Assembly (NCBI GenBank): GCA_903842025.1
Contig: CAIMKX010000040.1
Coordinates: 1-44,487 of the forward strand
Length of the DNA: 44,487 bases
Source: an uncultured bacterium
GTDB lineage: Bacteria > Patescibacteriota > Minisyncoccia > Phycocordibacterales > PALSA-1337
Direction of reading: 5' to 3'
Shown here piece by piece: positions 7,270 to 32,782 of the stretch (position 1 is the first letter of the stretch; each line of letters starts with the position of its first letter). The notes beneath the pieces were generated by a model, which saw only the letters and a list, made by a program, of their open reading frames with translations, was not told the DNA's origin and did no database searches. Position numbers and translations under genes: made by a program.

Positions 7270-7327
7270 TGAATTCAAACTACACACAGATAAGTATGCG
7301 CTGTCATTCTCAAAAAGATCTGCTTTG

Positions 7328-7440
7328 TCATTCCCACGAAAGCGGGAATCCAGGATTATCACGATTGGACTCCGTATTTAAATTTGTAATAACAAATATT
7401 TCGGTTATATCCTGGATTCCCGCTTTCGCGGGAATGACAA
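7328..7440. repeat. Family B palindromic repeat pair between TraC-like and virB4
   Basis: GTCATTCCC...GGGAATCCAG at 7328-7354 and its inverted partner CTGGATTCCCGC...GGGAATGAC at 7412-7438 enclose about 57 AT-rich bases. This is the most compact and complete copy of the family in the window. It could fold into a transcript hairpin inside the operon and lower or stabilise downstream expression; that effect is inference. Confidence 0.85.
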
Positions 7441-9915: not shown

Positions 9916-9972
9916 CCAAAAATCCCCCGGCCTACCGGCCACCCCCTTTTCCAAAGGGGGATCCTCCAACAT
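9916..9972. repeat. Family A palindromic repeat, solo half
   Basis: AAAAATCCCCC, a GGCC-TAC-CGGCC type hairpin, then CCCCCTTTTCCAAAGGGGG, ending in CTCCAAC. This is one half of the paired element seen at 18296, 22583 and twice in polA. The nested hairpins lie just after the stop codon of the previous gene and could act as a transcript end. Confidence 0.8.
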
Positions 9973-10018
9973 ACGGCTTATGTAATATATGGGGATTTTT
10001 TATCGCACTTGTTCATGG

Positions 10019-18295: not shown

Positions 18296-18521
18296 TAAAA
18301 ATCCCCCGGCCTGTCGGCCACCCCCTTTTTCAAAGGGGGATCCACCAACGTACTGCTAATGTTGTACAGATCGTCATTGCTTAATTACTCTCTAGGTTAA
18401 AGATTAAACACAAAGAGTGTTTAGAACCATAGTGAGTAATATTTAAAAAATGGTTCGATGGAAAATCCTCCTTTGAAAAAGGAGGTGGCTCTGAGCGAAG
18501 CGAAGAGACGGAGGATTTTTG
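18296..18521. repeat. Family A paired palindromic repeat, intergenic
   Basis: Left half (AAAATCCCCC, GGCC-TGT-CGGCC hairpin, CCCCCTTTTTCAAAGGGGG) at 18296-18342 and inverted right half (GATGGAAAATCC, CCTTTGAAAAAGGAGG, GGAGGATTTTT) at 18464-18521 flank a diverged AT-rich spacer. It ends 3 bases from the PBP stop codon and lies between convergent genes, so it probably also works as a terminator. Confidence 0.85.
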
Positions 18522-22582: not shown

Positions 22583-22750
22583 AAAAAATCCCCCGCCCCT
22601 CGCTTCGCTTCGGGGCACCCCCTTTTCCAAAGGGGGATTTTCCATCAGACTCGCTATGATTTTCTAAGTGAATATTTTATTGAATTTCTCTCTATTACCA
22701 AAGAATCTCGTTGGAGGATCCCCCTTTGGAAAAGGGGGTGGGGGATTTTT
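22583..22750. repeat. Family A paired palindromic repeat, intergenic
   Basis: Halves at 22583-22636 and 22715-22750 in inverted orientation. The spacer (ATTTTCCATCAGACTCG to ATCTCGTTGGAGGATCC) is the reverse complement of a close relative of the spacers inside polA. This is the intergenic copy that proves the polA insertions belong to a mobile family. Lies between the yebC and ruvB genes. Confidence 0.9.
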
Positions 22751-26252: not shown

Positions 26253-26334
26253 TGTCATTCCCGCGCCGTGCCCTCCGTAGCTTCAGCGAAGGCGGGAAGG
26301 CGGGAATCCAGTTCTTACCATGTCTGACATGGTA
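26253..26334. repeat. Family B repeat (solo) plus small palindrome
   Basis: GTCATTCCCGCG ... GGCGGGAATCCAG at 26253-26311 is a single family B unit carrying an extra stem-loop (CCTCCGTAGCTTCAGCG). Next to it, 26316-26334 is a 19-nt near-perfect palindrome (TACCATGTC-T-GACATGGTA) that could be an operator for the gene ahead. Confidence 0.7.
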
Positions 26335-29810: not shown

Positions 29811-29876
29811 TTCATGAATATTATACCATTCAAGGTGTTGTAAAAGTTAATTGGCTGTGGATAGCGGAGGTGCGGT

Positions 29877-29882
29877 ATGATA
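29877..29882 (+). promoter_or_regulatory. -10 box upstream of polA
   Basis: TATGAT, 5 nt before the ATG at 29888. No Shine-Dalgarno sequence. Confidence 0.4.
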
Positions 29883-29887
29883 GGGAT

Positions 29888-32719
29888 ATGAAAATGGCAT
29901 CCGATCCTGCAAAAAAAAGACTTATCTTGCTTGACGCCCATGCCATTTTGCATCGGGCTTATCACGCTTTGCCGGATTTTGCTACGGCCAAAGGCGAGCC
30001 GACCGGCGCGCTCTACGGTCTTTCAACCATGGTTATCAAGATTATCGAAGATTTGAAGCCGGACTACATCGTGGCTTGTTACGACGTCAAAGGTCCGACA
30101 TACCGCCACGAGGTTTACCAAGCCTATAAAGCCCAGAGAAAAGTCGCCGATGACGATTTAATAGTTCAAATGAACAGGTCACGGGACATATTCATGGCTT
30201 TGAATATTCCAATATATGACAAGCAAGGCTTTGAGGCTGACGATATGTTGGGAACGATTGTGGAACAGCTTACCAAAAAATCCCCCGCCCCTACGGGGCA
30301 ACCCAGTGGCGAATGTGCTCATTCGCCCCTTTTCCAAAGGGGGACTCTCCAACGTGATTCTTTGGTTAAAGAAGGAGAAATTCAAGAAAATATTCACATA
30401 GAAAATCATGGCGAGTTCGATGGAAAATCCCCCTTTGAAAAAGGGGGTGGCCGACAGGCCGGGGGATTTTCTGAAGATAATGCTATTCTCGTACCCCCTA
30501 ACCTCGAAATCATCATCGCTTCCGGCGACATGGACACGCTCCAACTGGTCAAAGGTGAAGATGTAAAGGTTTTCACTTTGAAGAAGGGGATTAAGGATAC
30601 GATCATGTACGATGAGAAAGCTGTTCGGGAACGTTTCGGTTTCGGTCCAGAGTTAATTCCTGACTATAAAGGTCTGCGCGGTGATCCTTCTGATAATATT
30701 ATCGGTGTTAAGGGTATCGGTGATAAAACCGCGACTATTTTAATTACAGCTTTTGGTTCCATTGAAAACATTTACCATGAATTGGAAAATGGCGGCGAAG
30801 AGAAGTTCAAGAAGGCCGGAATAAGCCCGCGGATCATTCAACTTCTGAAAGATAATAAAGAAGAGGCGGAATTCAGCAAAATGTTGGCGACAATACGCCG
30901 TGATTGCCCGATTTCTTTTGTTTTGCCGGAAAAAACTTTCAAGGAAAATTTGGATGTCAAGAAGATCAGTTCGCTTTGGCATGAATTGGAGTTTCGGACG
31001 TTGACACAGAGGTTGGAGAAGGTGGTGGAAGAAAAATCCCCCGCTCCTCGGCTGATCGCCTCGGAGCACCCCCTTTTCCAAAGGGGGACCCTCCAACGGG
31101 ATTCTTTGGTTAAAGGAGGGGAAATTCAAGAAAATATTCATTTAGAAGATCATGGCGAGTCCGATGGAAAATCCCTTTTTGGAAAAGGGGGTGTCTCGAC
31201 CGAAGGGAGGGACGGGGGATTTTCTGAAGACAATGGGGGTACAGAAAACAGTACTGTCGATTCAGCACTGGATTCCCGCCTTCCCTCCTTCGCTGAAGCT
31301 ACGGAGGGCAAGCGCGGGAATGACAAACGGGAAGATCTTGATCAAGTTTCTCTCGCTCTCTGGCTGGTCAATTCAACAATAACCAATCCAAAGATCGAAG
31401 ACATCCTAAATTTCGCCAACACGGAAAATTTCGATGAAGCCAAGGAAGCGATCTTCAAGGAATTGGACAAGAAGGATTTGCGCAAAGTCTATGACAAAAT
31501 AGAACTGCCCCTCATTCCTGTAATAAAAAAAATGGAAGAACGTGGCGTGAAGATTGACCGAGTGATTTTGAAAAATTTGGCGGAAACTTATCACGCTGAA
31601 TTATCCAAATTGGAAAAGAAAATTCATGAATTGGCCGGAATGGAATTTAACATTAATTCACCAAAACAGTTGGGAGAAGTCTTGTTTGATAAATTGCAGT
31701 TGACGGCCAAGAATATGAAAAAAACCAGTGGCGGTGCCCGTTCAACCCGCGAGTCAGAATTGGAAAAGTTGAAGGATTTGCATCCCATTGTTCCGCTTCT
31801 ATTCGAATATCGTGAGCTGGCCAAACTTCTCTCAACATACATCGACGCCATTCCGCCGCTTCTGGATGCCAACGACCGCCTGCATTCCAACTTCGTCTCT
31901 TCCGGAACGACGACCGGCCGGATGGCCTCGATCAATCCCAACCTGCAGAATATTCCCGTGAAGTCCGATCTGGGCAAAGCCATACGCAACGCCTTCATAG
32001 CCGAAAAAGGCTTCAGTCTTTGCGGTTTTGATTATTCCCAGATGGAACTGCGGATCGCCGCTTTTCTTTCTGGTGACGAGAAACTCATTGAAATATTCAA
32101 GAAAGGCGAGGATGTCCACACTTCGGTGGCCTCATCGGTCTTCAAGGTTCCTATGAACGAAGTGACTTCAACGATGCGCCGTCAGGCCAAGGTTATCAAT
32201 TTCGGAATTATTTATGGCATGGGCGTTATGGCTCTCAAACAGAATCTGGGCACGACCCGCGATGAGGCTCAAAAATTCTTGAATGATTATTTCGAAACTT
32301 TTTCGACCCTGGCCAAATATTTGAATGACGTCAAGATTCAAACAGCCGAGCGCGGATACACGGAGACATTTTTCGGTCGCCGGCGCTATTTCGAGGGGAT
32401 TAATTCCAAAATCCCTTACATCAAGGCTTCCGCCGAAAGGATGGCGATCAATGCGCCCATTCAAGGCACGGAGGCTGATGTCATCAAGTTGGCGATGGTA
32501 GCGATCGATAAGTTCATTGTTGAGAATAAACTGGAGAAAGACATTTTCCCGCTTCTTCAGGTCCACGACGAATTGATTTATGAAATTCGCGAAGATAAAG
32601 CCGCCGAGATTGCCCCAAAAATTGAGAAGATTATGGAATTCATTATGGATCCCAAAGATACGAAAGGTATAATTCTCAAGGCTGAGGCGGCGGTGGGGAA
32701 GAATTGGGGAGAGTTATAG
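29888..32719 (+). CDS. polA: DNA polymerase I with in-frame palindromic repeat insertions
   Basis: 943 aa. N-terminal 5'-3' exonuclease (residues 1 to about 320: LLDAHAILHRAYHAL, EADDMLGTI, ASGDMDTLQLV, GDPSDNIIGVKGIGDKTA), a degenerate proofreading region with no DEDD residues visible, and an intact polymerase domain (motif A FDYSQMELRIA, motif B RRQAKVINFGIIYGMG, motif C QVHDELIYE). Two family A repeats (residues about 130-195 and 382-446) and one family B unit (about 461-479) are translated in frame. They fall in a loop of the exonuclease domain and in the linker after it, so activity is likely kept. Without them the protein would be about 795 aa. The start at 29888 follows a -10 box. Confidence 0.95.
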   Translation: MKMASDPAKKRLILLDAHAILHRAYHALPDFATAKGEPTGALYGLSTMVIKIIEDLKPDYIVACYDVKGPTYRHEVYQAYKAQRKVADDDLIVQMNRSRDIFMALNIPIYDKQGFEADDMLGTIVEQLTKKSPAPTGQPSGECAHSPLFQRGTLQRDSLVKEGEIQENIHIENHGEFDGKSPFEKGGGRQAGGFSEDNAILVPPNLEIIIASGDMDTLQLVKGEDVKVFTLKKGIKDTIMYDEKAVRERFGFGPELIPDYKGLRGDPSDNIIGVKGIGDKTATILITAFGSIENIYHELENGGEEKFKKAGISPRIIQLLKDNKEEAEFSKMLATIRRDCPISFVLPEKTFKENLDVKKISSLWHELEFRTLTQRLEKVVEEKSPAPRLIASEHPLFQRGTLQRDSLVKGGEIQENIHLEDHGESDGKSLFGKGGVSTEGRDGGFSEDNGGTENSTVDSALDSRLPSFAEATEGKRGNDKREDLDQVSLALWLVNSTITNPKIEDILNFANTENFDEAKEAIFKELDKKDLRKVYDKIELPLIPVIKKMEERGVKIDRVILKNLAETYHAELSKLEKKIHELAGMEFNINSPKQLGEVLFDKLQLTAKNMKKTSGGARSTRESELEKLKDLHPIVPLLFEYRELAKLLSTYIDAIPPLLDANDRLHSNFVSSGTTTGRMASINPNLQNIPVKSDLGKAIRNAFIAEKGFSLCGFDYSQMELRIAAFLSGDEKLIEIFKKGEDVHTSVASSVFKVPMNEVTSTMRRQAKVINFGIIYGMGVMALKQNLGTTRDEAQKFLNDYFETFSTLAKYLNDVKIQTAERGYTETFFGRRRYFEGINSKIPYIKASAERMAINAPIQGTEADVIKLAMVAIDKFIVENKLEKDIFPLLQVHDELIYEIREDKAAEIAPKIEKIMEFIMDPKDTKGIILKAEAAVGKNWGEL
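30275..30471. repeat. Family A paired repeat inside polA, copy 1
   Basis: Same ends and spacer as the intergenic copy at 22583-22750, in inverted orientation to it. Read in the polA frame it has no stop codon and encodes SPLFQRGTLQRDSLVKEGE and neighbours. It lies between EADDMLGTIVEQL and LEIIIASGDMD of the exonuclease domain. Confidence 0.92.
31032..31224. repeat. Family A paired repeat inside polA, copy 2
   Basis: Second copy in the same orientation and same reading frame as copy 1, encoding HPLFQRGTLQRDSLVKGGE and neighbours. It sits in the linker after the exonuclease domain. Differences from copy 1 are mostly in the hairpin tips. Confidence 0.92.
31268..31325. repeat. Family B unit inside polA
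   Basis: CTGGATTCCCGCC ... GCGGGAATGAC with the extra CCTCC/GGAGG stem-loop seen in the copy at 26253. Translated in frame as LDSRLPSFAEATEGKRGND, about 15 codons after the second family A copy. Confidence 0.88.
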
Positions 32720-32723
32720 AATC

Positions 32724-32782
32724 CCCAAAATCCCCCGCCCCTACGGGGCACCCCCTTTTTCAAAGGGGGTGGGGGATTTTTA
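32724..32782. repeat. Family A short form after polA
   Basis: AAAATCCCCC, GCCCC-TAC-GGGGC hairpin, CCCCCTTTTTCAAAGGGGG, TGGGGGATTTTT: both outer ends but no spacer. It starts within a few bases of the polA stop and ends before the holA-like gene, and may act as an attenuator or terminator. Confidence 0.85.

Follow-up and report, generated by a model that had tools for sequence, protein, structure and literature searches.

The window analysed here, a stretch of 44,487 bases that constitutes contig C40 of genome G000 (949,867 bases in 56 contigs, 99% complete), carries polA together with copies of two palindromic repeat families, A and B (Table 1). polA is a single open frame of 949 codons that contains two family A copies, both of the short class described below. 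The initial annotation, made from sequence alone, had claimed that two repeats of one family lie in one polA frame and that they encode near-identical peptides. Both claims held: a 124-bp core common to the two copies (30326-30449 and 31070-31193) is 91% identical and is read in the same phase in both, although the shared peptide has to be corrected to PLFQRGTLQRDSLVK, preceded by S in one copy and by H in the other. The similarity continues past the palindrome for about 12 nt, into CTGAAGA(T/C)AATG, and the two copies are therefore possibly related by local copying. Selection on the inserted peptide was also considered, but with four synonymous and six amino-acid codon differences between the copies there is no sign of strong constraint. 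The CCCAGTGGCGAAT.. palindromes in L033 (congener G020) and in L036 (congener G001) resemble the one nested in copy 1, and the genus may have in them a third family of small repeats.

Table 1. Position of polA and of the repeat elements within the window
Feature	Position	Strand	Remarks
polA ORF	29870..32719	+	949 aa from GTG; likely start ATG 29888; Pfam DNA_pol_A and 5_3_exonuc
Family A element, in-frame copy 1	30275..30471	+	Loop of PolA 5'-nuclease domain
Nested palindrome GGCGAATGTGCTCATTCGCC within copy 1	30308..30327		Resembles sequence in congeners G020 and G001
Family A element, in-frame copy 2	31032..31224	+	Linker ahead of PolA polymerase domain
Family B repeat (CTGGATTCCCGC...GCGGGAATGACA), in frame in polA after copy 2	31264..31330	+	Core 31264-31310
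Solo 54-bp family A arm just past polA stop	32727..32780		Folds as near-perfect three-way junction, z -5.2
Family A short-class copy, intergenic, inverted	22583..22750	-	22585-22747 matches polA copies at 89-92% complementarity; 89%, E 8e-42 in genome search
Family A long-class copy, intergenic	18298..18520		No ORF of at least 100 aa spanning it
Partial family A arm	9919..9997		Sequence match
Family B copy matching the polA one	26269..26315		96% complementarity, inverted

Several observations indicate that the polA segments are insertions and not polymerase sequence, as had been proposed. The segments are absent from the PolA homologues of about 20 congeners and of other families of the order; an alignment with insertion-free relatives had been asked for in the initial annotation, and it is these congeneric proteins that supply it. 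Moreover, the two sites correspond to loops that are hypervariable in length within the genus: in most congeners site 1 reads TIVEQ...(variable)...LEIIIASGDMDTLQ, and site 2 reads QRLxK...(variable)...LEKxALALWLV. The claims that the polymerase motifs are intact, and that the insertions fall in a loop of the 5'-3' exonuclease domain and in the linker, were likewise supported, since Pfam detects a complete DNA_pol_A along with the two parts of the exonuclease, and since, in an alignment with the Taq enzyme, site 1 maps immediately past residue ~131, within the 5' nuclease, and the linker that precedes the polymerase domain contains site 2. Congener G003 carries in this same linker an in-frame family B-like pair of its own (VIPAKAGIQ...LDSRLRGDD). 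In-frame insertion at the DNA level is shown; that the peptide is retained in the protein is inferred from the kept frame.

Family A is not confined to polA. Searches, combined with the reading of selected stretches of the genome, recovered about 40 loci in the 950-kb genome, a number that excludes a chance origin of the polA repeats and that answers the genome-wide count suggested earlier; the claim that the same element lies inverted between genes in the window also held (Table 1). The copies fall into a long class (inner span of about 165 bp), a short class (about 120 bp), a mini class (about 54 bp) and single arms. Including the two in PolA, nine in-frame genic copies were counted, the others being in SecA, DnaE (short), RecG, DusB (mini), UvrB, Alr and RNase R (half elements). 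All nine keep an open frame, and each of those outside PolA lies in a variable loop that is shorter or empty in at least one congener (up to four congeners were aligned). No frame-breaking copy was seen in a conserved gene, though the search was not systematic. Twelve of 13 short copies, as against none of 12 long ones, are open in at least one frame; we make no claim of adaptation from this enrichment, because the copies are related and the short core would frequently be open by chance. The host loops are too variable for the exact insertion junctions to be defined, and by eye no clear target site duplication was found. Two solo copies, at L052:2098 and L058:14755, lie within larger flanking inverted repeats (GATTCAATC/GATTGAATC and TTTATGCCTTCA/TGAAGGCATAAA, respectively), perhaps terminators used as targets.

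Each family A arm follows a common plan, in which an outer strand AAAATCCCCC is followed by a hairpin of variable sequence and then by an inner palindrome CCCCCTTTTTCAAAGGGGG. At least four terminal Watson-Crick pairs are formed by the hairpin in 44 of 67 arms (shuffled sequences gave a mean of 3 and a maximum of 9), with stems as diverse as GGCC, GTCCT, GCCCC, GCTCC, GTTCC, GCTCT and GCCCT, among others. The arm hairpin therefore covaries, its pairing being preserved despite changes in sequence. The family A palindrome has no terminal GTAG or CGTC tag beside it; the arms end AAAATCCCCC...GGGGGATTTT.

Family B, which includes the third insert of polA, fits the CGTC class of REPs, with a CGTC/TGTC tag, a stem starting with AT and a CCA tail (TGTCATTCCCGCGAAGGCGGGAATCCAG). 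Eighty-two perfect copies are present in G000, while none of 33 congeners has more than 6, and in addition to PolA the family is found in frame, as a pair, in SecA and in UvrB. In the window, family B repeats also occur at 157-184 and 7325-7440. Family B was rejected as a part of the DUF559 system described below, no CGTC-type repeats having been found as arms at the named DUF559 loci. Because family B is in frame without a DUF559 partner at the loci checked, in-frame insertion does not require DUF559.

A candidate for the parent of family A is found on another contig of the genome (C41, 8655-9140), where two inverted family A arms surround one gene, coding for a DUF559 protein (PF04480), whose open frame passes through one of the arms. 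This is the only DUF559 match in G000, and the fact that it lies between inverted family A arms suggests an autonomous parent; DUF559 is also the only gene found between such arms (Y1 transposases elsewhere in the genome were outside the search). This parent, together with the genome-wide pattern and the third polA insert, was beyond what could be seen in the initial annotation. In the congeners no full-length DUF559 was detected, only three weak partial matches, and within the order full-length genes (E<1e-20) are present in 20 of 197 genomes. Among 20 of the best DUF559 loci of the order, 18 have inverted palindromic arms that score above shuffled sequence. Moreover, a palindrome like that of family A, CCCCCTTTN(1-6)AAAGGGGG, occurs in 9 of the 20 genomes with full-length DUF559 and in only 5 of the 177 others (p=2.5e-7; 103 versus 6 copies). 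Genomes with DUF559 often hold only a few palindrome copies; the strict arm pattern of the LeuRS/Tgt type has few copies, and the arm type of G165 has four in that genome. Two small genomes, G143 and G192, show an expansion, with eight DUF559 matches each, not all of them full length.

The association of DUF559 with palindromic arms extends well beyond the order. Across phyla (Nitrospirae, Planctomycetota, Bacteroidetes, Chloroflexi, cyanobacteria and others), inverted arms with an IR score of at least 32 flank DUF559 in 50 of the 76 testable loci, out of 80 named, whereas of 281 control windows, taken from the same loci at a shift of 1.0-1.3 kb, only 2 have such arms (Fisher p=4e-39). Detectable arms are missing at about a third of the DUF559 loci. 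The arm sequences vary by lineage; the plan, a CCCC-rich outer strand plus an inner palindrome, recurs.

The DUF559 profile matches NGO0050, an endonuclease-like protein of Neisseria gonorrhoeae (3hrl, E 4.7e-31), as well as the homing endonuclease I-Bth0305I, annotated as a 'mobile intron protein' (3r3p, E 1.5e-5 and 9.6e-6). The predicted structure (pLDDT 94) aligns with 3hrl at Z 16.2, with I-Bth0305I at Z 12.3 (rmsd 2.3 over 92 residues) and with Vsr at Z 9.7. Residues E22, D51, D64 and H68 are among those invariant in 45 DUF559 sequences, and are inferred to be catalytic. At the level of sequence and of predicted fold, then, the DUF559 catalytic domain is shown to match that of an EDxHD homing endonuclease, whereas catalysis itself, cleavage of an empty allele and homing are inferred. 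A DUF559 gene has been named an EDxHD homing endonuclease in a genome survey (PMC9403480).

DUF559 also resides in frame inside core genes. DUF559 with its arms is found within LeuRS (in three genera), Tgt, MetH (in two Flavobacterium), a DNA methylase and an HsdS. DUF559 is also N-terminal on PLP enzymes (threonine dehydratase-like, in Winogradskyella and in a Flavobacteriaceae bacterium), on a shikimate-kinase-like protein, identified by sequence reading only, and on QueG; these N-terminal cases weigh less, as an upstream start may have been misread in some. At one LeuRS site, three species of a single genus present an empty site (G235), an in-frame solo palindrome (G232) and DUF559 with arms (G143), respectively, and the Tgt site that holds DUF559 in G143 is empty in two sister species. 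The nuclease embedded in the Tgt of G143 is 71% identical to the one embedded in the LeuRS of another family and only 58% identical to the one embedded in the LeuRS of its own genome, the pattern to be expected if the element moves between genes. Pfam, run on nine proteins with an in-frame DUF559, confirmed the domain in LeuRS, Tgt and MetH and found no Hint splicing domain in any of the nine, which rules against the reading of these insertions as inteins. The LeuRS of G123 (L138), which holds DUF559, also has a NUDIX domain in frame in its editing region, at residues 542-657.

The polA segments are, in our view, likely to be non-autonomous, MITE-like copies of a mobile palindromic element that has a DUF559-bearing autonomous form, and to be translated as extra surface loops. 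The autonomous form would consist of a single DUF559 endonuclease gene, of the Vsr/I-Bth0305I fold, placed between arms. Cleavage of DNA by the nuclease, whether at a target or at the folded arms themselves, would be followed by repair that copies the element in. Insertions into essential genes would survive only where the frame is kept and the loop is tolerant and, without a splicing domain, the inserted peptide would stay in the protein. The mobilisation of family A by DUF559 is inferred, and rests on shared arms and co-occurrence; the genome was not surveyed for other transposases, and there are no data on strain-level polymorphism. A bolder reading is that DUF559 nucleases drive a widespread and undescribed class of mobile elements, with one Vsr/EDxHD-type gene between compound palindromic arms and with MITE derivatives, some lineages of which enter essential proteins in frame and persist in the mature product without an intron or intein. 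This we offer only tentatively, as the evidence does not yet quite tip in its favor.

It could be argued that family A is an ordinary REP or MITE family that depends for its movement on some other transposase, such as a RAYT or an IS enzyme, with DUF559 as a captured passenger. In support of this scenario, GTAG REPs are associated with RAYT transposases (PMC3733652), the arms are undetectable at a good part of the DUF559 loci and family B lacks a DUF559 partner. However, DUF559 recurs across phyla as the gene enclosed by arms of widely varied sequence, which is unexpected for a single captured passenger, and it is itself a relative of homing endonucleases; we thus regard the passenger scenario as unlikely. 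Less plausible still, and very unlikely in our judgment, is a spread without any dedicated enzyme, through template switching or gene conversion at palindromes followed by retention in loops by drift. The hairpin tips do look shuffled among arms, and the likeness of the polA copies outside the element fits such a process, but complete elements of three size classes occur at unrelated sites, palindrome copy number tracks DUF559, and few copies are present in congeners without full-length DUF559.

The segments could also be removed after transcription or translation, in the manner of an intron or intein; it is conserved genes that are hit, and DUF559 is kin to an intron-encoded homing endonuclease. 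Yet all nine genic copies are open in frame, which RNA splicing would not need, the DUF559-bearing proteins have no Hint domain, and the ends of the inserts vary, so that this possibility can be practically dismissed. An assembly error, always possible with short repeats, or a decayed polA can be set aside with the same firmness: the two polA copies have unique flanks and are about 9% divergent, seven other genes, as well as other genomes, show the same pattern, and the polymerase domain is intact.

Palindromic repeats in frame in repair proteins are already known, both as Rickettsia palindromic elements (RPEs) and as REPs. The former (RPE-1 and others) are mobile palindromes of about 150 bp, each carrying a conserved peptide, that occur in frame in unrelated protein genes (PMC10969869). 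They had been put forward as the closest precedent for the polA insertions, and the parallel is apt, as family A too is in frame in several unrelated genes; REPs, however, are a closer one, having been described near and inside genes of other bacteria that include DNA polymerase I, uvrB, dnaE and tRNA synthetases (PMC3733652). Family A differs from the RPEs in its host, in the absence of the CGTC tag of RPE-4 and RPE-6, and in having a candidate nuclease-bearing parent. No enzyme is known for the CGTC REPs (PMC3733652). The DUF559 elements resemble the REPtrons of RAYTs in that an enzyme gene is flanked by repeats, but the gene between the arms codes for a Vsr-like nuclease and not for a Y1 transposase, and the arms have two hairpins and no GTAG or CGTC tag. 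With the EDxHD homing endonucleases (I-Bth0305I) and with free-standing homing genes they share the sequence and fold of the catalytic domain and the insertion into conserved genes; they differ in the lack of an intron or intein, in their palindromic arms, in having non-autonomous derivatives and in their many unrelated target genes. Like MITEs, family A elements are short and multicopy, with terminal inverted repeats and no enzyme of their own; unlike MITEs, their arms are long, compound and two-hairpinned; no clear target duplication was visible by eye in the variable host loops. In the open-access literature searched (subscription literature was outside our scope) we found no description of DUF559 elements with palindromic arms or with in-frame insertion, and to that extent it is the nuclease-bearing parent that is undescribed.

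The mechanism by which RPE-like repeats, and many short palindromic repeats of other kinds, spread has been an open question, and for one large group DUF559 offers a testable candidate. Should the copies be translated and retained, proteins of replication, repair and translation would be gaining loops from mobile DNA at high frequency in a genome of only 950 kb, and essential genes would be shown to harbour a homing-type nuclease durably in the absence of self-splicing. Finally, near-identical peptides, SPSLAPKVASGE and SPSLAPKVVSGE, are present in the UvrB of G002 and the DnaE of G017, which suggests a further family of in-frame repeats.
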